Shown here piece after piece: positions 9,210 to 24,873 of a stretch of DNA of 24,873 nucleotides. The position numbers and the translations under genes are program-made. The notes under the pieces are model-generated. The model saw nothing but the letters and a program-made list of their open reading frames with translations. It had not been told where the DNA came from and searched no databases. The stretch is from positions 1 to 24,873 of IMG/VR virus record IMGVR_UViG_3300008448_000593, one strand, 5' to 3'. The stretch comes from a virus. Each line of letters starts with the position of its first letter. Position 1 is the stretch's first letter.

Positions 9210-10079
9210 GTGTCTACTGCCCGCCCTCGCAAGATATCACAAATTAAACCAATTTTCGGTAATCTTGCACAAACTTCTCATTATCATGTTTCTTTTGGAG
9301 CATTATCACGCCCTCTTCAAAATCACTTAAGTTTAAGAGGTGTTGATTGGGCATTTGTTGCCGAAAATGCGGGATTATTGTGCTCTTCTGCATCATTACC
9401 AGGTAGTAGTATAGGAACGTCAGATATTGTTGGTGATGTTAGTGGAGTGGCTGAAAAAATGGCCAATAGCAGAGTATTTACTGCATTAGATCTAACATTT
9501 TATGTCGATAAAGAATATAAAATGATTAAATTTTTAGAGCATTGGATAGAATTTATTGCTAGTGGATCTGGAGCAAATTTAATAGATGAGGGATATTTTT
9601 TCAGAATGAAATATCCAAAGGATTATAAATCAGATACTGTTAAAATTTTAAAATTTGATAGAGATTATAATAATGAAATTGAGTATAACTTTTTTAAATT
9701 ATTTCCAACCACAATGTATTCTCCGACAGTTGCATATAATGAGACTCAAATATTAACTGTAACTGCATCATTTAATTATGAAAGATATGTTTGTGGATCT
9801 ACTAGAAGTATAGATATTTCTTATTTAAGAAGTAATAATTTAATACCTCAAAATGTAACTGCATCAACATCATCATCAACATCTACACCCAAAAATAATT
9901 CTAATAGACTTGCAACTGGAAGAGAAGAAATGATTTGGAGAAATCTTAATCAAGGTACTGGAAGATTGGATGATCCAAGACCAAGAGGAATTGGTGGGCC
10001 TATTAATCCTAGTCCAGATGCAAAAGCAGTTTCTAATAGTTCTAGTCCAAATAATTCTAGTTGGTTTAGAACACTATAA
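9210..10079 (+). CDS. 54: Baseplate tail-tube initiator gp54
   Basis: The 289-residue product has the tail-tube-type fold signature: Y-H-V-S-F-G near the N-terminus, a L-P-G-S-S-I-G-T-S-D-I loop, A-L-D-L-T-F-Y-V-D, and L-x-V-T-A-S-F-N-Y-E-R-Y. A Ser/Thr/Asn-rich tail follows (from about residue 215). In T4, gp54 (320 residues) sits on gp48 and starts polymerisation of the gp19 tube. At 289 residues and within the baseplate cluster it is more likely gp54 than the roughly 200-residue gp19 tube protein. The GTG start is supported by AAGAG upstream, and the TAA lies within a TATAAATA late box. Confidence 0.75.
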   Translation: MSTARPRKISQIKPIFGNLAQTSHYHVSFGALSRPLQNHLSLRGVDWAFVAENAGLLCSSASLPGSSIGTSDIVGDVSGVAEKMANSRVFTALDLTFYVDKEYKMIKFLEHWIEFIASGSGANLIDEGYFFRMKYPKDYKSDTVKILKFDRDYNNEIEYNFFKLFPTTMYSPTVAYNETQILTVTASFNYERYVCGSTRSIDISYLRSNNLIPQNVTASTSSSTSTPKNNSNRLATGREEMIWRNLNQGTGRLDDPRPRGIGGPINPSPDAKAVSNSSSPNNSSWFRTL

Positions 10080-10108: not shown

Positions 10109-10828
10109 ATGCCTTTACCAAAGATTGCGACTCCAATTTATGAGTTGGAAATTCCATCATTAAAAAAGAAAATTAGATATCGTCCATTTTTAGTTAAAGA
10201 AGAAAAGATCCTCATTATTGCAATGGAGAGTGAGGATAGTAAGCAAATTGCAAATGCAGTCAAGACTGTAATTTCTAACTGTATTTTGAGTAAAGGAATT
10301 AAGATTGATGATCTTTCAACATTTGATATTGAATATTTGTTCTTAAATATTCGTGGTAAATCTGTTGGTGAGACTGTCGATGTATTAATTACGTGTCCAG
10401 ATGATGGAGTAACAAAAGTTCCTGTCAGTATCAATTTAGATGAGATTTTAGTACAGGAGCAAGAAGGACATACTAGAGATATTAAATTAGATGATACTTT
10501 AACCATGAGAATGAAGTATCCTTCCATGGCAGAATTTATTAAAAATAATTTTAATAGTGGAGAAGGAATTGGTGTTAATGAATCCTTCGATCTAATTTGT
10601 TCATGTATTGATCAGGTATATTCTGAAGAAGAGTCATGGATTGGAAGCGAATGTTCAAAGAAAGAACTTTCGGAATTTGTTGAACAATTGAGTTCAAAGC
10701 AATTCAAAGAAATTGAGAAGTTTTTTGAAACAATGCCAAAACTTTCTCATAATATTAAAATTAAAAATCCAAATACTGATGTTGAAAGTGAAGTTGTACT
10801 GGAGGGACTTCCTGCTTTTTTCGTGTAA
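10109..10828 (+). CDS. 26: gp26-type baseplate/tail assembly protein (frameshift donor)
   Basis: The 239-residue product fits the T4 gp26 baseplate family. An N-terminal Y-E-L-x-I-P-S-x-K-K-x-I-x-Y-R-P-F-L-V-K-E-E-K segment is followed by a helical middle (I-x-N-C-I-L near residue 60), a beta region with C-P-D-D-G, and a helical C-terminus rich in Phe and Glu. T4 gp26 has 208 residues and is required for hub assembly. The last codons contain a T TTT TTC slippery heptamer (10816-10822) and a stem-loop after the stop, predicting a -1 frameshift. A minor 297-residue product would run through the next 56 codons, as in lambda G/GT tail chaperones. This suggests gp26 acts as a tape-measure chaperone, which is inference. 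Confidence 0.85.
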   Translation: MPLPKIATPIYELEIPSLKKKIRYRPFLVKEEKILIIAMESEDSKQIANAVKTVISNCILSKGIKIDDLSTFDIEYLFLNIRGKSVGETVDVLITCPDDGVTKVPVSINLDEILVQEQEGHTRDIKLDDTLTMRMKYPSMAEFIKNNFNSGEGIGVNESFDLICSCIDQVYSEEESWIGSECSKKELSEFVEQLSSKQFKEIEKFFETMPKLSHNIKIKNPNTDVESEVVLEGLPAFFV

Positions 10829-10857
10829 GTATGGCGCATAATGATCTTGCGTCATAC
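10816..10857 (+). promoter_or_regulatory. Predicted -1 programmed frameshift signal
   Basis: The in-frame heptamer T TTT TTC (10816-10822) has the X XXY YYZ form. A 6-base spacer (10823-10828) carries the stop codon. A stem GTATGGCGCA (10829-10838) then pairs with TGCGTCATAC (10848-10857): ten consecutive pairs including one G-U, with a 9-base loop. The -1 frame is open through R-V-S into the 56-codon ORF, ending at 11001. The stem also hides that ORF's ATG (10831-10833), and no Shine-Dalgarno lies nearby, which favours frameshifting over independent initiation. Confidence 0.75.
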
Positions 10858-11001
10858 TTCCGAACTAATTTTTCCTTGATGCAACACCATAAATATTCAT
10901 TAACAGAGCTTGAAAATATGATTCCTTGGGAAAAGGAAATTTACATTACACTTTTACAACAATATATTGAAGAAGAAAATCTTAAAAATCAACAATCCTA
11001 A
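10831..11001 (+). CDS. 56-codon -1 frame extension of gp26 (GT-like T domain)
   Basis: This frame runs from an ATG at 10831 to a TAA at 10999-11001 that overlaps the next start (TAATG). It encodes 56 residues with a helical first half and a C-terminal I-P-W-E-K-E-I-Y-I-T-L-L-Q-Q-Y-I-E-E-E segment. Short domains with a W-E-x-x-x-Y/L-x-x-L-L pattern are typical of the second half of tail assembly chaperones. It lacks a usable ribosome-binding site, and its ATG is paired in a stem. I therefore expect it to be made mainly as the C-terminus of a gp26 fusion (238 gp26 residues, three linker residues, 56 residues). Independent translation cannot be excluded. Confidence 0.72.
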   Translation: MAHNDLASYFRTNFSLMQHHKYSLTELENMIPWEKEIYITLLQQYIEEENLKNQQS

Positions 11002-12656
11002 TGGCAGTTCTACCATCGCCACTTTCCAATTCCATTCAGGGTATTAATGAAAGTACCGTATCGGGAAGTGTTTTTGGTGGTAATAGGCAGGATCCCGAAA
11101 CAAAATCTACACTTCAATCACTTTCATCTTCAGTAGTATCACTACAAAATCAAGTTAATCAATTAAATAATAATAATATCACCAATGTTAAAGTTTTTTC
11201 AAATTTTCAACAGTCTTTTTCCACTCAAATTGATAGCGTAAGACTTCAATTAAATAAAGTTAATGAAACTCTAGAATCAGTTGCAACAATAACTGCAAGT
11301 GAAAGTGCTCTTGAAAAGCAAAAAGATCTTTATGAGCAAGAAAAAGAAAAAAGATTGGCAGAAGCAGGAGCAAGAGGAGGAAAAGAAAATCTTCTAGAAA
11401 CTAAAATTCAAAGTGCTTTATCGGAACCAGTAAATCGTATTGGAAATAAAGTTTCATTTGGATTCCAAAATTTAATGTCGTTTATAATGACATTACTTGG
11501 AGGATGGTTAACTCTTGAAGGAATCAAGGCGATCAAAGCTTATCAAGATGGTGATAAGAAACAACTAGATGATATTAAAAATTCAGTAATTAAAACTCTT
11601 GCAATTGCTGGTGGTATATTTGGTGTTATTAATTTTGGTATAGGTAGAGTTATTGGAACTATTACTGGACTTGTAGCAAAAATTGGAAAATTTATAGTTG
11701 GTGGATTAATAATCAAACCATTCCAGACAGTTGCGACTGGATTGAGGAATGTTCTACCTGGAAGAACTGTTGCACCGCCCAAACCTCCAGGACCTAAAGG
11801 ACCTGTTAAAGGTCCAAATTTTCTTGGAGGAGCACTCAATTTATATACAGCATTAAGAAATTATGGTAATGGTGAAATTACTGATACTGTTATGCAGGGA
11901 GTGCTTGGAGCATTATTACTTACTCCTGCCGGAAGATTGGTGAGTGCTGTTAGAACTCTTCTTGGTGTTGCAGTTACTGCAGATGAAATTGCAGAAGTTT
12001 TTGGTTCTAATATATTTGGGGAAAATCCAGATACTTTAAAGAAAGCAAAGCAAGTAAAGGAACTAGCAGAAAAAGAGGCACAAGATAACAAAAAAAATAA
12101 ACTTACAGCATCTCCACTTAAAAAACCAGAAGCACCAAAACCAGAAGATGCTAAACCTGCTCCAACAACTACTATGGTTCCTCCTGCAAGTAATTTGCAG
12201 ATTAATCCGCCAACATCAACACCATCATCAACTTCTGCGACTACACCACCATCTACACCAACACCATCATCAACTTCTGCGACTACAACACCAACATCTA
12301 TACCATCAACACCAGTAGCAACCTCTACACCAACATCAGCAGAAAGTTCTAAACCTGCACCAGTACCAAGTTCTACATTACCGCTAGTTCCAGCACCAGC
12401 AGAAACTTCATCTAAACCTTCTATTCCAATAATAACACCTGCAGAAACATCAAAAGTTCCAACTTTACCATTTAATGTTGGACCAGAACCTGAACCAAAA
12501 CCAAATATTATATACACATCTTCTGGTTCTCCTACTCCACCACCACAGCAACCATTGAAGAGTGGACCTGCAAGTGATGTTCCTGCCATTCCTTCATCTA
12601 ATCCTGATAATTTCTATACATTATATTCTCAAATTAATTATAATGTGGTAATATAA
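11001..12656 (+). CDS. Tape-measure-like tail protein (551 aa)
   Basis: The N-terminal 130 residues are Gln/Asn/Ser-rich and heptad-like, then strongly charged, predicting a coiled coil. Two hydrophobic stretches follow (about residues 150-175, F-I-M-T-L-L-G-G-W-L-T-L, and about 195-240, Ile/Gly-rich). A Pro/Gly segment and an Ala/Leu-rich helical region come next. From about residue 370 to 535 there is a long Pro/Thr/Ser linker with internal repeats. Coiled coil plus membrane-seeking helices, placed directly after a frameshifted chaperone-like gene, are hallmarks of tape measure proteins; length fixing is inferred, not shown. T4 gp29 is similar in length (590). The ATG at 11001 overlaps the preceding stop. 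The companion gene at 12658 has a related architecture. Confidence 0.6.
   Translation: MAVLPSPLSNSIQGINESTVSGSVFGGNRQDPETKSTLQSLSSSVVSLQNQVNQLNNNNITNVKVFSNFQQSFSTQIDSVRLQLNKVNETLESVATITASESALEKQKDLYEQEKEKRLAEAGARGGKENLLETKIQSALSEPVNRIGNKVSFGFQNLMSFIMTLLGGWLTLEGIKAIKAYQDGDKKQLDDIKNSVIKTLAIAGGIFGVINFGIGRVIGTITGLVAKIGKFIVGGLIIKPFQTVATGLRNVLPGRTVAPPKPPGPKGPVKGPNFLGGALNLYTALRNYGNGEITDTVMQGVLGALLLTPAGRLVSAVRTLLGVAVTADEIAEVFGSNIFGENPDTLKKAKQVKELAEKEAQDNKKNKLTASPLKKPEAPKPEDAKPAPTTTMVPPASNLQINPPTSTPSSTSATTPPSTPTPSSTSATTTPTSIPSTPVATSTPTSAESSKPAPVPSSTLPLVPAPAETSSKPSIPIITPAETSKVPTLPFNVGPEPEPKPNIIYTSSGSPTPPPQQPLKSGPASDVPAIPSSNPDNFYTLYSQINYNVVI
12217..12287 (+). repeat. 29-base direct repeat in the Pro/Thr/Ser linker
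   Basis: Identical 29-base copies at 12217-12245 and 12259-12287 are spaced 42 bases apart, so each preserves the frame of 14 codons. They encode repeated T-P-S-S-T-S-A-T-T units. The repeat is likely a slippage or recombination product that changes linker length. Confidence 0.85.
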
Positions 12657-12657
12657 T

Positions 12658-14454
12658 ATGGCAATTGCATCTTCAATTAATTTAGATAAAGTATCAAGCG
12701 GAATTAAATCCCTTAATACTGGAATGGGACAATTGAAAAAATCCGCAGATACTGTAAAAACTGTTACTCTCAATAGAACAACAATAAAAAAAGAATCTAT
12801 TGCTAGGAATAGAATGCTCAGTACTATGAGAGAAGAATCAGTTAGAAGAAAAGATCAAGAAAGTGTTATTGAAGCTTCTGGTATCGGTGGAGCATTTAAA
12901 AGAGCAGGATCAGTAATTGCCGATAGTACAAAAGGATTTCTTGGTAGATTATTAGATTTTGCATCTAGTCTTTTACTTGGTTGGTTGCTTTATAATTTAC
13001 CAACAATTATGACAGCAATTGAAGATTTGATTATTAGAATTAGATCTTTATATGGTATATTAACTGAGTTTATGACAAATATTAAATATACATTTCAAAG
13101 TTTTGGACAACTTCTTTCTGCAGTATATCAAGATATTATACACTTTGATTTTACTGATCAATCAAAAAGAGTTCAGAATGCAATGAATGATTTGAATGTA
13201 AATCTTGAAACAATGCAAGATCAATTCATGCAAGGATTTGATTTACTTAAAACTCCTCTTGGAGAAGGACCAGGAGAAGAACCACCCGCACCATTGAATA
13301 CTGATTATACTCAACCTGGTCCTACTACTGGCGGTGGACAAGATCTTTACACACTTGCAACAATAGTAAATTTAGAAAGTGGATCCTCACAAGGACAAGC
13401 AGATGTTGCTCAGTCAATTTATAATAGAATGAAAAAAAGTGGAAAAGGTGTTGTTGATGTAACTACATCTCCTGGTCAATATGAACCTTTTTTTGGAAAG
13501 GGTGGAGGTATCGATCCAGCATCAAAAAACATTAAAACTTTTGATGATGCTGTAAGATATAGAATGAAAAAAACTGGAGAAAATAGAGCAACAGCAGAAA
13601 GATCAATTCTTGCTACAATTTCCGCAATTCAAGATCCAAATAAGCAAGCATCTGCTAGGCAGTTTATTGGGACAAGAACAAGTTTTAGAGGAAGTCCACA
13701 AAATACCGGAATTACTTTAGGGAATGTTTCTTGGAGAGGAAGTAGACTTGATAATCAGTTTTTAAATGAAGAGGTTGTTAGTGGTACACCTGGAGCTATA
13801 CCATCTTTTGTAAGTTTTCCCACAAAAACAACTCAAATATCGCAACCTCCTTCGGGAAAAGGTGGTAAAGTCATCGAATATCTTACTGGAGATAGAACAC
13901 ATAAGAGGTATAGAGCAGATCATGGTGCAGGAAATTATCATGATCATGTTGCATTTGATAGTCAAGCGACAAGAGATGCTGCGATAAAATGGTTAAGAGG
14001 TAAAGGATGGGTAGTTGGATCAATAAACACTGGTAGACATGCTGAGGGTTCTTTTCACTACTCAAATCAAGCATTTGATATTCCATTTTATCCCAACCAA
14101 TCTAAAAAAGGTGTTACTGATGATGCAAAAGGTGAAACTATCTTAAGTTCTAGATTTAGAGCAGACTTAATTGCTGGTGGATTTGGTGGGCCTCAACTTG
14201 GCGGTTCTTCAATAGCACCGTCACCACCAGCACCAGCAAAAGTATCACCAAAAAATCAACCAGGACAAAATGTTCCTTCAGTTTCTCAAAATAGAAGAGG
14301 TCAACAAATTCTGGTTGTAGATGATCGCCAACCACCTATACCACAACAAGTTTCTGCAGGTAGTGGTAGATCTCAACCACAACCAATCCCCGCTGAAGAT
14401 TCGTTAAATAGTCTTATTAAGAATCAAATACTTCTAGAGTTAGCGTATACCTAA
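12658..14454 (+). CDS. Tail protein with membrane helix and two predicted wall-hydrolase domains (598 aa)
   Basis: The N-terminal 80 residues are a charged coiled coil. A hydrophobic segment follows (about residues 95-120, L-L-L-G-W-L-L-Y), like one in the preceding protein, then a helical region to about 200. Residues 229-355 resemble the SleB-type cell-wall hydrolase: L-A-T-I-V-N-L-E-S-G with E240 as likely catalytic Glu, G-Q-A-D-V-A-Q-S-I-Y-N-R-M, and P-G-Q-Y-E-P-F. Residues 400-500 carry H461 and the S-F-H-Y-S-N-Q-A-F-D-I pattern (H467, D474) of M15-like peptidases. A Pro/Gln tail ends it. It may cut peptidoglycan during DNA entry, replacing the lysozyme of T4 gp5. The domain assignments are by motif only. 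It starts two bases after the previous stop. Confidence 0.7.
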   Translation: MAIASSINLDKVSSGIKSLNTGMGQLKKSADTVKTVTLNRTTIKKESIARNRMLSTMREESVRRKDQESVIEASGIGGAFKRAGSVIADSTKGFLGRLLDFASSLLLGWLLYNLPTIMTAIEDLIIRIRSLYGILTEFMTNIKYTFQSFGQLLSAVYQDIIHFDFTDQSKRVQNAMNDLNVNLETMQDQFMQGFDLLKTPLGEGPGEEPPAPLNTDYTQPGPTTGGGQDLYTLATIVNLESGSSQGQADVAQSIYNRMKKSGKGVVDVTTSPGQYEPFFGKGGGIDPASKNIKTFDDAVRYRMKKTGENRATAERSILATISAIQDPNKQASARQFIGTRTSFRGSPQNTGITLGNVSWRGSRLDNQFLNEEVVSGTPGAIPSFVSFPTKTTQISQPPSGKGGKVIEYLTGDRTHKRYRADHGAGNYHDHVAFDSQATRDAAIKWLRGKGWVVGSINTGRHAEGSFHYSNQAFDIPFYPNQSKKGVTDDAKGETILSSRFRADLIAGGFGGPQLGGSSIAPSPPAPAKVSPKNQPGQNVPSVSQNRRGQQILVVDDRQPPIPQQVSAGSGRSQPQPIPAEDSLNSLIKNQILLELAYT

Positions 14455-18669: not shown

Positions 18670-21600
18670 ATGGCAGATATTTTAGTTACAGGTCAAGAAG
18701 CATATTTTAATGAAGACGCTAAATTCTTTAAAGATGTTTATGTGTATGGTAATTTATATGCTTTAGGTCAAGGCGGGGTTGGTGGAGTTGGGGGTGGAAA
18801 TTTTAGTGGATCTGTAGTAATACCTGAAAATCTTTTTGTCGGAGGAATTTCTACATTTGTTGGAAAGGCTAATTTTCTATCTGATGTTAATATTGAAAAT
18901 TTACAAGTTGGTATATTAACAGTAACTAAAAAATTTGATGTTGGAGTTGGTGGGACAGTATTAACTGCATCTATTGCTACTGGAAACATTGGAATTGGAA
19001 CTTCTATTCCCAGAGAAAAAGTTGATATTATTGGAACAACATTAATTAGTGATAAATTAGGGATTGGCAATAATTCACCACAACAAGCTCTTGATGTTAC
19101 TGGAACAGCATTAATTAGTAGCAGATTAGGAATTGGTAATAATTCACCACAAGAATCTCTTGATGTTAGTGGATCGGCATTAATTAGCAGTAGATTGGGA
19201 ATTGGCAATAATTCACCACAACAAGCTCTTGATGTTACTGGAATAGCATTAATTAGTAGCAGATTAGGAATTGGTAATAATTCACCCCAATATCCTCTTG
19301 ATGTCACTGGTGATGCAAGAATTTCAAGTCAATTATATGATTCAACAAATAGTTCTGGAGTCATTGGAGCATTTTTAACAAAAGATGCTCAAGGAATTAA
19401 ATGGACTCCATTTGAACCTTCTTTTGTTGAGGGTATTTTTGTTTATAATGAGGATGTTTTAGTTAGTGTTTCATCTTTTAGAGGTTTAAACTTAAAAAAA
19501 GGGAGAGGGTCTGGAATTACTACAGATCCAATTCAAGGATTTGTAAATCCAACTAGTCCATCAATTGCTGATGTTTATGTCTATGATTATTGGGATAATG
19601 TTGAAGGAACTACTACTATTTACAGAAATTCTTATGTTGGAATCGGAGGTTCAACTCCAAAATTTGATTTAGATGTTTTTGGATCTGTAGGTATATCTTC
19701 ACTTTTAATCGTTGGTGGTGCTACTTCTCTTTCTAGCACTTTAGATGTAACTGGTATCACTACATTAAGAAGTCAATTGATTGTTAAAGGTCCTACAAAT
19801 CTTGAGAAGACCTTAGATGTAACTGGTATCACTACATTGAGAAGTCAATTGATTGTTAAAGGTCCTACAAATCTTGAACAAACTTTAGATGTAACTGGTA
19901 TCACTACATTAAGAAGTCAATTGATTGTTAAAGGTCCTACAAATCTTGAGAAGACTTTAGATGTAACTGGAATTACGACTTTAAGAGACCAATTAATCGT
20001 TGGTGGCGCTACAAGTCTTGCTAGTACTTTAGATGTAACTGGAATTACGACTTTAAGAGACCAATTAATCGTTGGTGGCGCTACAAGTCTTGCTAGTACT
20101 TTAGATGTAACTGGAATTACAAATCTAAAGGATCAATTGATCGTTGGTGGTGCTACTTCTCTTTCTAGTACTTTAGATGTAACTGGAATTACGACTTTAA
20201 GAGACCAATTAATCGTTGGTGGTGCTACTTCTCTTGCTAGTACTTTAGATGTAACTGGAATTACGAATCTAAAGGATCAATTAATCGTTGGTGGTGCTAC
20301 AAGTCTTGCTAGTACTTTAGATGTAACTGGTATCACTACATTAAGAAATCAATTAATCGTTAAAGGTCCTACAATTCTTGAACAAACTTTAGATGTAACT
20401 GGAATTACGACTTTAAGAGACCAATTAATCGTTAAAGGTCCTACAATTCTTGAACAAACTTTAGATGTAACTGGAATTACGACTTTAAGAGACCAATTAA
20501 TCGTTGGTGGCGCTACAAGTCTTGCTAGTACTTTAGATGTAACTGGAATTACAAATCTAAAGGATCAATTAATCGTTGGTGGTGCTACAAGTCTTGCTAG
20601 TACTTTAGATGTAACTGGAATTACAACTCTAAGGAATCAATTGATTGTTAAAGGTACTACAAATCTTGAACAAACTTTAGACGTAATTGGTATCACTAAT
20701 CTAAAGGATCAATTGATCGTTGGTGGTGCTACTTCTCTTGCTAGTACTTTAGATGTAACTGGTATTACTACATTAAGAAACCAATTAATCGTTGATGGAG
20801 CGACATCTTTAAATTCAACTCTTCAAGTTGGAGTTGGGGGAACAGTTATTACAACTACTGGAATTGGTTCTGTTGGTATAGGAACCTATAATCCAGAATT
20901 TGATATTGATTTGGCAAATAGTGTCAAATTCAGAAAAGCGATAATTGATAAAAATAATAAGGTTGGATATGATACTAATTTCTATCAAACTCCAAGATCA
21001 GTACTAACACAAGTTGGCATAGATACTGCCGGAGAAATCATTGGAGGTAGATTTTTTGATGCTGCAAATATGATTCGTTTGAATCTTGATTATATTGCAT
21101 CAGAGGCAGTTGGATATATTACAAGTACGGACTATAAAAATCCAGCATTTACATTAAATTCTGGAGATTATACTTCTTGTAAAGATGATATTAAAGATAT
21201 TCTAAAAGCAATTACGATTGACATTACAAAAGGTGGAAATGTTCAGTCCGTAGGTGCTGGTCGTGCATATCATGATGGAAATACTTTATTTTCTATTGGA
21301 ATTACTACTACAATTGCTACAATTGGTGCCGCTGCAACTGTTACAAAATATGTAATTAATAATGTCTCACCACCAAAATCATATCAAAGTGGTGTGGGTA
21401 GTATTCGTCAGGTAAGAGATTTAACTTTACAAGAAGATAATGGAAGTAATACAAATTCAACTGGATGTTCAAATGTAGTATCTGCAATTTATACATGTGC
21501 TGGTATTGTAACCACAATTATTGGAAATGGTCCAAATGCAGTACCGATTAATAATCCTGATGGAAAGGTAATTTGGGCACCAGCAGGAGCAGACTCTAGA

Positions 21601-23178
21601 AATCTAATTTGGGTTTCTAAGTATGGTAATGATGATAATGGTGGAAAGACTGAGGGTGATGCAAAACTCACAATTGGTGCTGCTTGTGAGATTGCTGAAC
21701 CAGGTGATACTGTTATGGTTCGTTCTGGTGTGTATTATGAAAATAATCCAATTGGATTAAGAACAGATGTATCTGTAAGTGGACAAGATTTAAGACTTGT
21801 TACTGTTGTCCCTAAAAATTTGGGTAAAGATGTTTTCCATGTAAGAAGAGGATGTCTGATTGAAAATATGAACTTTGCATGTGAAACTGGAGAATCGAAT
21901 ATTGGAGGAGGAGCACTAGCATTCCCACCAACAACTATTGATATTTTGGCAGGAAAATCTTATGGTGCAGTAACTGGATATACTGCACCTGGACCTGCAA
22001 ATGAAGGACCAAGTGGAAGATGGAGATCTCCATATGTAAGAAACTGTACTAACTTTATGCCGTTTAGTATTGGTATGAAAATTGATGGAGATCATTCAGT
22101 TTCTTCTACAATTGGTGCAGATCTTAAATGTATGGTGTGCGATTCGTTCACACAATACAATGAAGCAGGTATTGGTGTTTCAATTACCAATAATGGATAC
22201 GCACAGTTAGTCTCTATTTTCACAATTAACTGTGATAAGGCAATCTATGTTGATACTGGTGGACAATGTGATCTTACAAACTCCAACTCATCTTTTGGTA
22301 ATTATGGTCTTTATGCGGTTGGTTTAGGTAGAACAGAATTTACTGCAAAAGTAAATACATCTACATCTGCAGAAGAAGATACAATCGTCTTTAAAGAGGT
22401 AACTGACGGAACTCAAGTAAGAAGACCTTATGATGGGCAGGCATTATGGTTTAAGATTAATCTTGCAAATTATAATACTGGTCAGACTGGAATTATTACT
22501 GCACCACTACAACAATTAAATAAAATTAATATAATTAATACTATTCCTGGATATAGTCCAAGTGCTCCACCAGATGTTACCATTTATGATTATAATACCA
22601 ATAGTGAAAATCCATTAGGCCCAGAGGGCATTATTGCAGAATTGTCTCCAACAATTAGTGACGCTGGAGAACTTATTGCCGTTGATGTTATTGGTAGTGG
22701 AAGAAATTATCTCCCTTCTCAAGATATGAGAGTTAGAATTAATGGAGTTCCTACAAATAATTTGGTTGCGGTAATGGAACCAATTTATTATACTGTTTCT
22801 GAGGCGACACCTCCAACTAATTCTGGTATCACAACTGTTACTCTAAATGAATTTGTTCCATATCTTGTTTATGCTGAAGATGCAATTGATATGAGAAGAA
22901 TTAGTCGCATTTTGACAAGTTCTCACTCTTTCGAATATATCGGTACTGGCACAGATATAAATACTTCAACTCCTTTGAAGGGTGCTGTGCCCATCAAAGA
23001 GAACGAAATTGTTGCTCTTGATGGCGCTCAAATACCTTACACAAGTACTGACCAAAAAGGTAATTTTAATATTGGTGAAGGTATTCAAGTAGATCAAACA
23101 ACCGCAACAATTCGTGGAAGAGACTTTAGTAAAGCAATTCAAGCACAAGTAACACCTTTAATTCTTGCATTGAGATAA
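18670..23178 (+). CDS. Large fibre/baseplate-associated protein with LDVTG repeats and beta-helix domain (1502 aa)
   Basis: The N-terminal 110 residues have a Gly-rich segment and I-G-I-G turns. Four 23-residue I-G-N-N-S-P-Q/L-D-V-T-G repeats follow (bases 19057-19332). After a unique spacer come fifteen 24-residue T-L-D-V-T-G-I-T repeats (bases 19738-20817). From about residue 970, W-V-S-K-Y-G-N-D-D-N-G-G, A-E-P-G-D-T-V and G-V-Y-Y-E-N-N-P-I-G begin a right-handed beta-helix (pectin-lyase-like) domain to about 1250. The C-terminus has D-Q-K-G-N-F-N-I-G-E-G, common in cyanophage structural proteins. Such repeats form elongated trimeric fibres, and the beta-helix may bind or cut surface glycans. 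Receptor binding is inferred from architecture and position. No S74 chaperone domain is seen. Confidence 0.8.
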   Translation: MADILVTGQEAYFNEDAKFFKDVYVYGNLYALGQGGVGGVGGGNFSGSVVIPENLFVGGISTFVGKANFLSDVNIENLQVGILTVTKKFDVGVGGTVLTASIATGNIGIGTSIPREKVDIIGTTLISDKLGIGNNSPQQALDVTGTALISSRLGIGNNSPQESLDVSGSALISSRLGIGNNSPQQALDVTGIALISSRLGIGNNSPQYPLDVTGDARISSQLYDSTNSSGVIGAFLTKDAQGIKWTPFEPSFVEGIFVYNEDVLVSVSSFRGLNLKKGRGSGITTDPIQGFVNPTSPSIADVYVYDYWDNVEGTTTIYRNSYVGIGGSTPKFDLDVFGSVGISSLLIVGGATSLSSTLDVTGITTLRSQLIVKGPTNLEKTLDVTGITTLRSQLIVKGPTNLEQTLDVTGITTLRSQLIVKGPTNLEKTLDVTGITTLRDQLIVGGATSLASTLDVTGITTLRDQLIVGGATSLASTLDVTGITNLKDQLIVGGATSLSSTLDVTGITTLRDQLIVGGATSLASTLDVTGITNLKDQLIVGGATSLASTLDVTGITTLRNQLIVKGPTILEQTLDVTGITTLRDQLIVKGPTILEQTLDVTGITTLRDQLIVGGATSLASTLDVTGITNLKDQLIVGGATSLASTLDVTGITTLRNQLIVKGTTNLEQTLDVIGITNLKDQLIVGGATSLASTLDVTGITTLRNQLIVDGATSLNSTLQVGVGGTVITTTGIGSVGIGTYNPEFDIDLANSVKFRKAIIDKNNKVGYDTNFYQTPRSVLTQVGIDTAGEIIGGRFFDAANMIRLNLDYIASEAVGYITSTDYKNPAFTLNSGDYTSCKDDIKDILKAITIDITKGGNVQSVGAGRAYHDGNTLFSIGITTTIATIGAAATVTKYVINNVSPPKSYQSGVGSIRQVRDLTLQEDNGSNTNSTGCSNVVSAIYTCAGIVTTIIGNGPNAVPINNPDGKVIWAPAGADSRNLIWVSKYGNDDNGGKTEGDAKLTIGAACEIAEPGDTVMVRSGVYYENNPIGLRTDVSVSGQDLRLVTVVPKNLGKDVFHVRRGCLIENMNFACETGESNIGGGALAFPPTTIDILAGKSYGAVTGYTAPGPANEGPSGRWRSPYVRNCTNFMPFSIGMKIDGDHSVSSTIGADLKCMVCDSFTQYNEAGIGVSITNNGYAQLVSIFTINCDKAIYVDTGGQCDLTNSNSSFGNYGLYAVGLGRTEFTAKVNTSTSAEEDTIVFKEVTDGTQVRRPYDGQALWFKINLANYNTGQTGIITAPLQQLNKINIINTIPGYSPSAPPDVTIYDYNTNSENPLGPEGIIAELSPTISDAGELIAVDVIGSGRNYLPSQDMRVRINGVPTNNLVAVMEPIYYTVSEATPPTNSGITTVTLNEFVPYLVYAEDAIDMRRISRILTSSHSFEYIGTGTDINTSTPLKGAVPIKENEIVALDGAQIPYTSTDQKGNFNIGEGIQVDQTTATIRGRDFSKAIQAQVTPLILALR
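19057..19332 (+). repeat. Four 69-base coding repeats (23 aa each)
   Basis: Four units of L-G-I-G-N-N-S-P-Q-x-x-L-D-V-x-G-x-A-x-I-S-S-x lie head to tail, each 69 bases. A diverged fifth unit precedes them (I-G-I-G-T-S-I-P-R-E-K-V-D-I-I-G). The reading frame is kept throughout. Confidence 0.9.
19738..20817 (+). repeat. Fifteen 72-base coding repeats (24 aa each)
   Basis: Fifteen exact-length units begin T-L-D-V-T-G-I-T. Two sub-types alternate: those ending G-G-A-T-S-L-A-S and those ending K-G-P-T-N-L-E-Q or a close variant. Several adjacent units are almost identical at the DNA level, pointing to recent duplication or gene conversion. Confidence 0.95.
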
Positions 23179-23838: not shown

Positions 23839-24873
23839 ATGACAAGATATATAAGTGGAAAAAAGAGGGTAACTCCTTTTTTAGGACTGAGTACAAACCG
23901 AAACAGATATCTTGGATTAGAACAAGCAGAACCTAATCTTGGATATCCTGGAGAAAAGATAGTACCTGGATCGTCAGTATATTATTCTTTAGTAACAATT
24001 AATAATGGAACAGTATACGACAGATATTGGATAGAACCTGGAATATATGTTCAAGATGAAAATAATCTTATAGGTGTAGGTAATACTTTTTCTAAATTAA
24101 ATTTTGTTGGAGCTGCTGTTACTGTAACTGGTGAAGGAAGTACGGCAAAAATTACTATTTTTGCTCCAGGAGATGAAAAGCAAGTTATTTTTAACAATTC
24201 TGGGGAATTTGCTGGAGCATCTCAATTATATTATGATAACTCAACAAATAAAGTTGGGATAGGTACTTCAATACCAACTGAAAGTTTACATATTCAAGGT
24301 TCATTTAGAATTACTGGAGAATTTAGAGATTCTCTGAACCAAGTAGGTGCGGCTAAATCAGTTTTATTATCTACAGGATATGGCGTTATTTGGTCAGATT
24401 ATGTTCAAGGTGTGCAGGGTACTCAAGGAACTCAAGGTACTCAAGGTACTCAAGGTACTCAAGGTACTCAAGGTACTCAGGGCAATCAAGGTATTCAAGG
24501 ACTTCAAGGTACTCAGGGCAATCAAGGTAATCAAGGTATTCAAGGACCACAAGGAACTCAAGGACTTCAAGGTACTCAGGGTCTTCAGGGAACTCAAGGT
24601 CTTCAGGGAACTCAAGGTACTCAGGGTACTCAGGGTAATCAAGGTATTCAAGGACCTCAAGGACTTCAAGGTACTCAGGGTAATCAAGGACTTCAAGGTA
24701 CTCAAGGTATTCAAGGTATTCAAGGACCTCAAGGTACTCAGGGACTTCAAGGTAATCAAGGAATTCAAGGAGAACAAGGTATTCAAGGAACACAAGGACC
24801 ACAAGGTCTTCAAGGTACTCAAGGTCTTCAAGGTAGTGGAGGACAAGGACCACAGGGTTCTCAAGGACTAAGT
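23839..24873 (+). CDS. Collagen-like tail fibre protein, 5' part (continues past window)
   Basis: The frame opens at ATG 23839, three bases after the previous stop, and stays open for 345 codons to the window end. Residues 1-110 are a beta-rich domain (Y-W-I-E-P-G-I-Y-V, F-A-P-G-D-E-K-Q-V). Then comes N-K-V-G-I-G-T-S-I-P-T-E-S-L-H-I-Q-G, a turn found in many phage fibres. From about residue 190 (base 24406) to the end it is almost pure Gly-X-Gln triplets, a collagen-type triple helix. The X position is mostly Thr, Leu, Ile, Asn or Pro. It is probably a trimeric fibre whose C-terminal tip, outside the window, binds the host. Confidence 0.85.
   Translation, partial: MTRYISGKKRVTPFLGLSTNRNRYLGLEQAEPNLGYPGEKIVPGSSVYYSLVTINNGTVYDRYWIEPGIYVQDENNLIGVGNTFSKLNFVGAAVTVTGEGSTAKITIFAPGDEKQVIFNNSGEFAGASQLYYDNSTNKVGIGTSIPTESLHIQGSFRITGEFRDSLNQVGAAKSVLLSTGYGVIWSDYVQGVQGTQGTQGTQGTQGTQGTQGTQGNQGIQGLQGTQGNQGNQGIQGPQGTQGLQGTQGLQGTQGLQGTQGTQGTQGNQGIQGPQGLQGTQGNQGLQGTQGIQGIQGPQGTQGLQGNQGIQGEQGIQGTQGPQGLQGTQGLQGSGGQGPQGSQGLS
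24406..24873 (+). repeat. Collagen-like (Gly-X-Gln)n coding repeat
   Basis: About 50 consecutive triplets follow the 9-base pattern CAA/CAG-GGT/GGA-NNN, interrupted once near 24834-24846 by a Gly/Ser segment. All other reading frames in the region are by-products of this periodicity. Confidence 0.93.

Follow-up and report, generated by a model that had tools for sequence, protein, structure and literature searches.

The question raised by this locus is whether the short reading frame found immediately downstream of a gp26 homologue, annotated in cyanophages as an independent gene (gp51), is translated on its own or is joined to gp26 by recoding. The window, which is the whole stretch of 24,873 nucleotides of viral DNA analysed here, suggests the second answer. 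We propose that programmed -1 frameshifting near the end of gp26 yields two tail assembly chaperones, a short TAC-N and a long TAC-NC, and from comparative sequence evidence we put the probability of this reading at about 93%. The cassette comprises the following features:

10109..10828, + strand: gp26 homologue, short form, TAC-N, 239 aa (Pfam PF12322, PHROG 150)
10801..10806, + strand: Shine-Dalgarno-like GGAGGG, putative upstream stimulator, 9 nt 5' of the heptamer
10816..10822, + strand: slippery heptamer T TTT TTC, in X XXY YYZ phase with gp26
10822..11001, + strand: -1 extension, 59 aa plus stop, predicted C domain of TAC-NC and the "gp51" of cyanophage annotations (PHROG 634, PHROG 150 C-terminus)
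10826..10828, + strand: zero-frame stop TAA ending the short form (read from the sequence)
10827..10838, + strand: 5' arm of the hairpin, putative stimulator (fold z-score, covariation)
10848..10859, + strand: 3' arm of the hairpin, closing a 9-nt loop (10839-10847)

The gp26 gene ends in a slippery heptamer followed by an open -1 frame

The product of the gp26 homologue matched nearly the whole PF12322 profile (positions 2-218 of 219; E = 4.5e-73; 246 bits against a cut-off of 24.5), as well as PHROG 150 (E = 6e-82). The 3' end of the gene reads CTG GAG GGA CTT CCT GCT TTT TTC GTG TAA. The initial annotation had placed T TTT TTC at 10816-10822 in the correct register, with the zero-frame stop right after it, and both the coordinates and the phase were confirmed, the stop being the TAA at 10826-10828. 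Note that T TTT TT(C/T) occurs in phase only 3 times in the ~7,550 codons of the window genes, and that only at gp26 is it located at the gene end. The presence of a frameshift cassette at the end of gp26 is a correct observation, far beyond chance.

As also claimed initially, the -1 frame is open for 59 codons from 10822, and its stop (TAA, 10999-11001) shares position 11001 with the start codon (ATG) of the following ORF. The predicted long product, join(10109..10822, 10822..11001), has 297 aa and a predicted junction reading ...GLPAFFRVSMAHND...; past the heptamer, the -1 frame translates as RVSMAHNDLASYFRTNFSLMQHHKYSLTELENMIPWEKEIYITLLQQYIEEENLKNQQS followed by the stop codon, and includes the conserved stretch ...YSLTELENMIPWERE.... 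The extension matched PHROG 634, "baseplate hub assembly catalyst" (E = 1e-27), and the C-terminus of PHROG 150. In Pfam, its only match was a sub-threshold one to Stealth, which we judged to be due to chance.

In the proposed mechanism, the majority of ribosomes would end at 10826-10828 and produce gp26 (TAC-N, 239 aa). A minority would pause, with the internal GGAGGG pairing with 16S rRNA behind and the 12-bp hairpin standing ahead; both Phe-tRNAs would then shift by one base in the 5' direction over T TTT TTC, and the addition of 59 more codons in the -1 frame would generate the 297-aa TAC-NC. By analogy with the lambda G/GT proteins, we expect the N part to coat the tape measure protein and the C extension to bring in tail tube subunits, with neither chaperone form present in the virion. 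We infer the slippage itself, its rate and the chaperone roles.

The heptamer is conserved at the nucleotide level

We gathered gp26 loci from IMG/VR and from phage records, 188 of them with a readable end. T TTT TT(C/T) was in phase in 185, almost always ending one codon short of the stop; of the remaining three, two come from distant phages and the third is an in-frame fusion. The frameshift reading survived when we checked whether close relatives had lost the heptamer and whether there was an independent ribosome site. The heptamer was present in S-CREM2, S-N03, S-H34 and S-CRM01, in Stenotrophomonas Moby, Aeromonas PX29, Vibrio CZ01, Agrobacterium OLIVR5 and Aeromonas ZPAH1, and, as TTTTTTT, in Sinorhizobium phiM7 and Methylophilales Melnitz-2, so that several phage families carry it in all. 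It was absent from Vibrio K357, Pseudomonas Cygsa01 and the four Ackermannviridae examined.

From the heptamer-bearing loci we picked 96 cyanophage-type representatives with less than 85% DNA identity. Since merely 3 loci were excluded for the absence of the heptamer, this choice does not drive the result. The representatives are mutually related, and nominal p-values calculated from them therefore overstate significance. A T precedes the two Phe codons in 96/96, when codon usage predicts 58. The codon that supplies it can be AGT, TCT, GCT, GAT, AAT or GGT, and the residue varies among Ser, Ala, Asp, Asn and Gly. The Phe codons themselves are TTT TTC in 92 representatives and TTT TTT in the other 4. 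On a 56-row tree made without the codons of the heptamer region, the residue before Phe-Phe changed at least 8 times, with the T retained throughout. In support of selection on the nucleotides, synonymous conservation along gp26 had one maximum at the start of the gene and another over codons 234-239; among the last codons, it was highest at GAG 232 and at 236-238.

Another possibility could be that this conservation reflects a Phe-Phe C-terminus combined with local constraints on the DNA or RNA that have nothing to do with frameshifting. Phe-Phe is indeed conserved at the protein level, and is also found at the end of T4 gp26 (EFFELL). However, the synonymous choices, with TTT always first and a T before it whichever of the five residues is encoded, are left unexplained, as is the -1 domain, which remains open and conserved, and we find this explanation scarcely credible. 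Slippage by RNA polymerase along the run of T, producing transcripts in the fused frame, deserves slightly more weight and is still highly improbable. The run is there, and transcriptional slippage in bacteria likewise gives fused products. Nevertheless, it consists of only six T and then a C in 92/96 representatives, whereas the usual bacterial slippage runs are longer than six T, and neither the codon phase nor the Shine-Dalgarno-like element nor the RNA hairpin is predicted by such a process.

Putative stimulators flank the heptamer

The GGAGGG upstream of the heptamer had been missed by the initial annotation. The Glu codon of this Shine-Dalgarno-like element is GAG in 79/92 representatives, compared to 33% over the remainder of gp26 (nominal binomial p ~1e-25, obtained from related representatives). 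Downstream, a stem had been rightly recognised, but with ten pairs; it comprises 12 bp, one of them G-U, formed by 10827-10838 with 10848-10859. Its predicted energy is -16.9 kcal/mol (z = -5.12), and 0/200 shuffles were equally stable.

By sequence comparison, the hairpin is covarying inside the window's clade. Thus, column pair 21/35 is U-A in 26 sequences, G-C in 25, A-U in 2 and unpaired in 3, with at least 9 and at least 10 changes on its two sides along the tree. In the hairpin register 85% of the cells were paired, compared to 29-44% when the register was slid. In the well-supported independent pairs, the two sides of this column pair had always changed jointly (4/4), a number with which a sign test cannot reach 0.05. 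In other clades, the same place carries different or weak stems, or no simple stem, and the hairpin is therefore not universally required. As regards the initial suggestion that other cyanophages be checked for conservation despite codon drift, the heptamer and the Shine-Dalgarno-like element are kept, but the hairpin is kept within the window's clade and not elsewhere. We infer that both elements would stimulate slippage.

The extension as a separate gene

The main alternative is that the extension is a small gene of its own, "gp51", expressed by reinitiation at the ATG at 10831 after the gp26 stop. This is how GenBank records (P-SSM2 and others) annotate it, from an ATG after the stop. An ATG just past the gp26 stop is kept in most cyanophages, and some separate synthesis by reinitiation is therefore possible. 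In the window, however, this ATG is buried in the 12-bp stem and lacks a properly spaced Shine-Dalgarno, just as was first noticed, the GGAGGG ending 24 nt upstream. Moreover, an ATG is missing from the first codons of the -1 frame in 15 of 101 homologues, Leu often replacing Met. An independent gene also leaves unexplained both the near-invariant in-phase heptamer and the third-base T preceding it.

Some distant phages without the heptamer also speak for independent translation. In most of the Ackermannviridae examined and in Cygsa01, the gp26 stop overlaps a start codon as TAATG: among the five such phages (L203, L205, L206, L208 and L090), this overlap begins the extension in four, suggesting reinitiation there. 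The exception is Menlow (L206), where the sequence is TAATT and the extension is not preceded by any ATG. For the window, we regard a separate gene as very unlikely, even if it is the least improbable of the alternatives considered. Programmed frameshifting of the lambda G/GT type making a long tail chaperone, as originally proposed, fits all the comparative evidence, including the many relatives with no start codon for the extension.

Records such as those of ZPAH1 (L207, 3699-3863) and Menlow (L206, 3744-3896) have an extension in the -1 frame without any annotated ORF. For annotation, the small cyanophage "gp51" ORF should be described as a join with gp26. The natural variants with and without the hairpin, the ATG and the Shine-Dalgarno-like element constitute a testable set for the evolution of recoding strength.

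The in-frame fusion mentioned above is carried by contig L056 (1501-2391), where gp26 and the extension are encoded in one frame. The fused protein has 297 aa, the length of the predicted frameshift product. The fusion results from a 2-nt deletion in the heptamer, relative to the close relative L047, and the 236-kb contig has a single PF12322 gene. This deletion may be natural or may be a homopolymer sequencing error.

Predicted structure of the fused protein

The model of the L056 fused protein had a mean pLDDT of 86, with values mostly above 90 in the N domain and a helical extension of low-to-moderate confidence. A fold search of the PDB gave nothing at E <= 0.001, and among the 50 matches listed only HK97 TAC 2ob9 and 3fgx superposed closely, both weakly at E ~2.8 (2ob9_B, 2.6 Å over 62 columns, probability 0.47; 3fgx_A, 1.9 Å over 52 columns, probability 0.51). 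In BFVD, the matches of the model were mostly gp26-family proteins. Sequence searches against solved structures gave nothing useful.

The cassette lies between a tail-tube-fold gene and tape-measure candidates

The gp26 cassette is flanked by the following genes, the first one upstream and the other two downstream:

9210..10079, + strand: tail-tube-fold gene, tube or tube-initiator protein (PHROG 45 tail tube, E = 1e-36; Pfam Phage_TTP_2, E = 7e-14)
11001..12656, + strand: 551-aa ORF, tape-measure candidate (position in the tape-measure slot; length comparison)
12658..14454, + strand: 598-aa ORF, second tape-measure candidate (length comparison)

We compared the two post-chaperone ORFs of S-CREM2 (L197, 4484-13555), which are annotated as endolysin, with those of L198, L200 and the window (11001-14454). 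In S-CREM2, whose tail measures 418 nm, the slot of the 551-aa ORF encodes 1565 aa, compared to 933-936 aa in relatives with tails of 129-138 nm. Similarly, the slot of the 598-aa ORF encodes 1456 aa in S-CREM2 and 722-735 aa in the shorter-tailed relatives. The summed excess in S-CREM2, ~1,350 aa, would correspond to ~200 nm at 1.5 Å per residue, the observed tail difference being 280-290 nm. This comparison of tail lengths is suggestive only, and makes one or both ORFs candidates for the tape measure.

Further downstream, the ORF at 18670-23178 (1502 aa) contains many near-identical repeats of ~28 residues (LDVTGITTLR.QLIVKGPT/GGATSL), and is probably a tail fibre or baseplate appendage. The ORF at 23839-24873, which runs off the end of the window, contains long collagen-like GTQG/GPQG/GLQG repeats.

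T4 encodes the short and long forms as two genes

T4 gp26 (short) and gp51 (long) are homologous to the window proteins. T4 gp51 matched PF12322 over the whole profile length (E = 4e-52), PHROG 150 through the extension and PHROG 634 at its C-terminus; it carries the same C-terminal extension, which is missing from T4 gp26. The PHROG profiles were used here because a MAFFT alignment of the extension with T4 gp26 and gp51 misplaced it. With gp51 made up of a gp26-like domain plus the extension, and gp26 ending without it, T4 has a separate gene for each form, on opposite strands, whereas the window phage would use one gene and a frameshift. The cassette, selection at the nucleotide level, the homology of the extension to the T4 gp51 C-terminus and the gp26/gp51 relationship are all supported by sequence comparison. 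Sullivan et al. 2010 (PMC3037559) described cyanophage gp51 as ~20% of the length of T4 gp51, without the first 200 residues, precisely the part that a frameshift from gp26 would provide.

We lean slightly towards a scenario in which the frameshifted gp26 is ancestral in T4-type phages, T4 gp51 having originated when gp26 was duplicated and the fused form became fixed, with the frameshift lost elsewhere. The frameshift would have been kept in cyanophages, Emdodecavirus, Heverleevirus, Menderavirus and the Aeromonas and Vibrio relatives of T4, and the TAATG overlap of most Ackermannviridae examined and the in-frame fusion of L056 would represent losses. If true, this would explain T4's long-standing exception among long-tailed phages.

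Comparison with known systems

According to the review of Atkins et al. 2016 (PMC5009743), G-T frameshifting is a widely conserved trait of long-tailed phages, with T4 listed as the exception. Vladimirov, Gautam and Davidson (Virology 566:9-15, 2022) identified T4-like TAC genes, as cited in PMC12846349 and PMC10885494. Where the PRFect paper (PMC10885494) draws on that work, some T4-like phages are said to have a short gene and a longer fused gene, with no frameshift; where the paper on Pseudomonas phage Adele (PMC12846349) cites it, the subject is poly-T frameshift signals in T4-like TAC-N genes. Since chaperone genes of T4-like phages, gp26 and gp51, were thus already published in 2022, the recasting of gp26 as a chaperone, initially presented as new, is not. 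As for the other part of that claim, a literature search, in which the 2022 article was represented by the papers citing it, found no description of the detailed cyanophage cassette or of its breadth. The significance of the cassette is that a strong frameshift signal is present on T4's own chaperone family in nearly all marine relatives, and the T4 exception therefore looks like a gene-fusion alternative to recoding.

The Adele-type TAC of Vandenendeviridae/Andersonviridae also has a poly-T slippery site ending TAC-N and a downstream ORF open in -1, often annotated separately, as here. It differs in belonging to other phage families and in its GTTTTT motif, and the section of PMC12846349 devoted to it mentions neither a Shine-Dalgarno-like element nor a hairpin.

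As in lambda gpG/gpGT and P2 gpE/E', the slip predicted in the window is a -1 slip near the 3' end of a tail-module gene placed before the tape-measure slot, and gives short and long forms with a common N part. The lambda slippery heptamer is G GGA AAG. By comparison, the window has T TTT TTC, a Shine-Dalgarno-like element and, in its clade, a strong hairpin; sequence kinship with the lambda proteins is not expected. The E. coli dnaX gene combines an upstream Shine-Dalgarno-like element, the slippery heptamer A AAA AAG and a downstream hairpin, and slippage there truncates the product. The window cassette has the same three-part layout, but its predicted slip would lengthen the protein, whereas that of dnaX shortens it.
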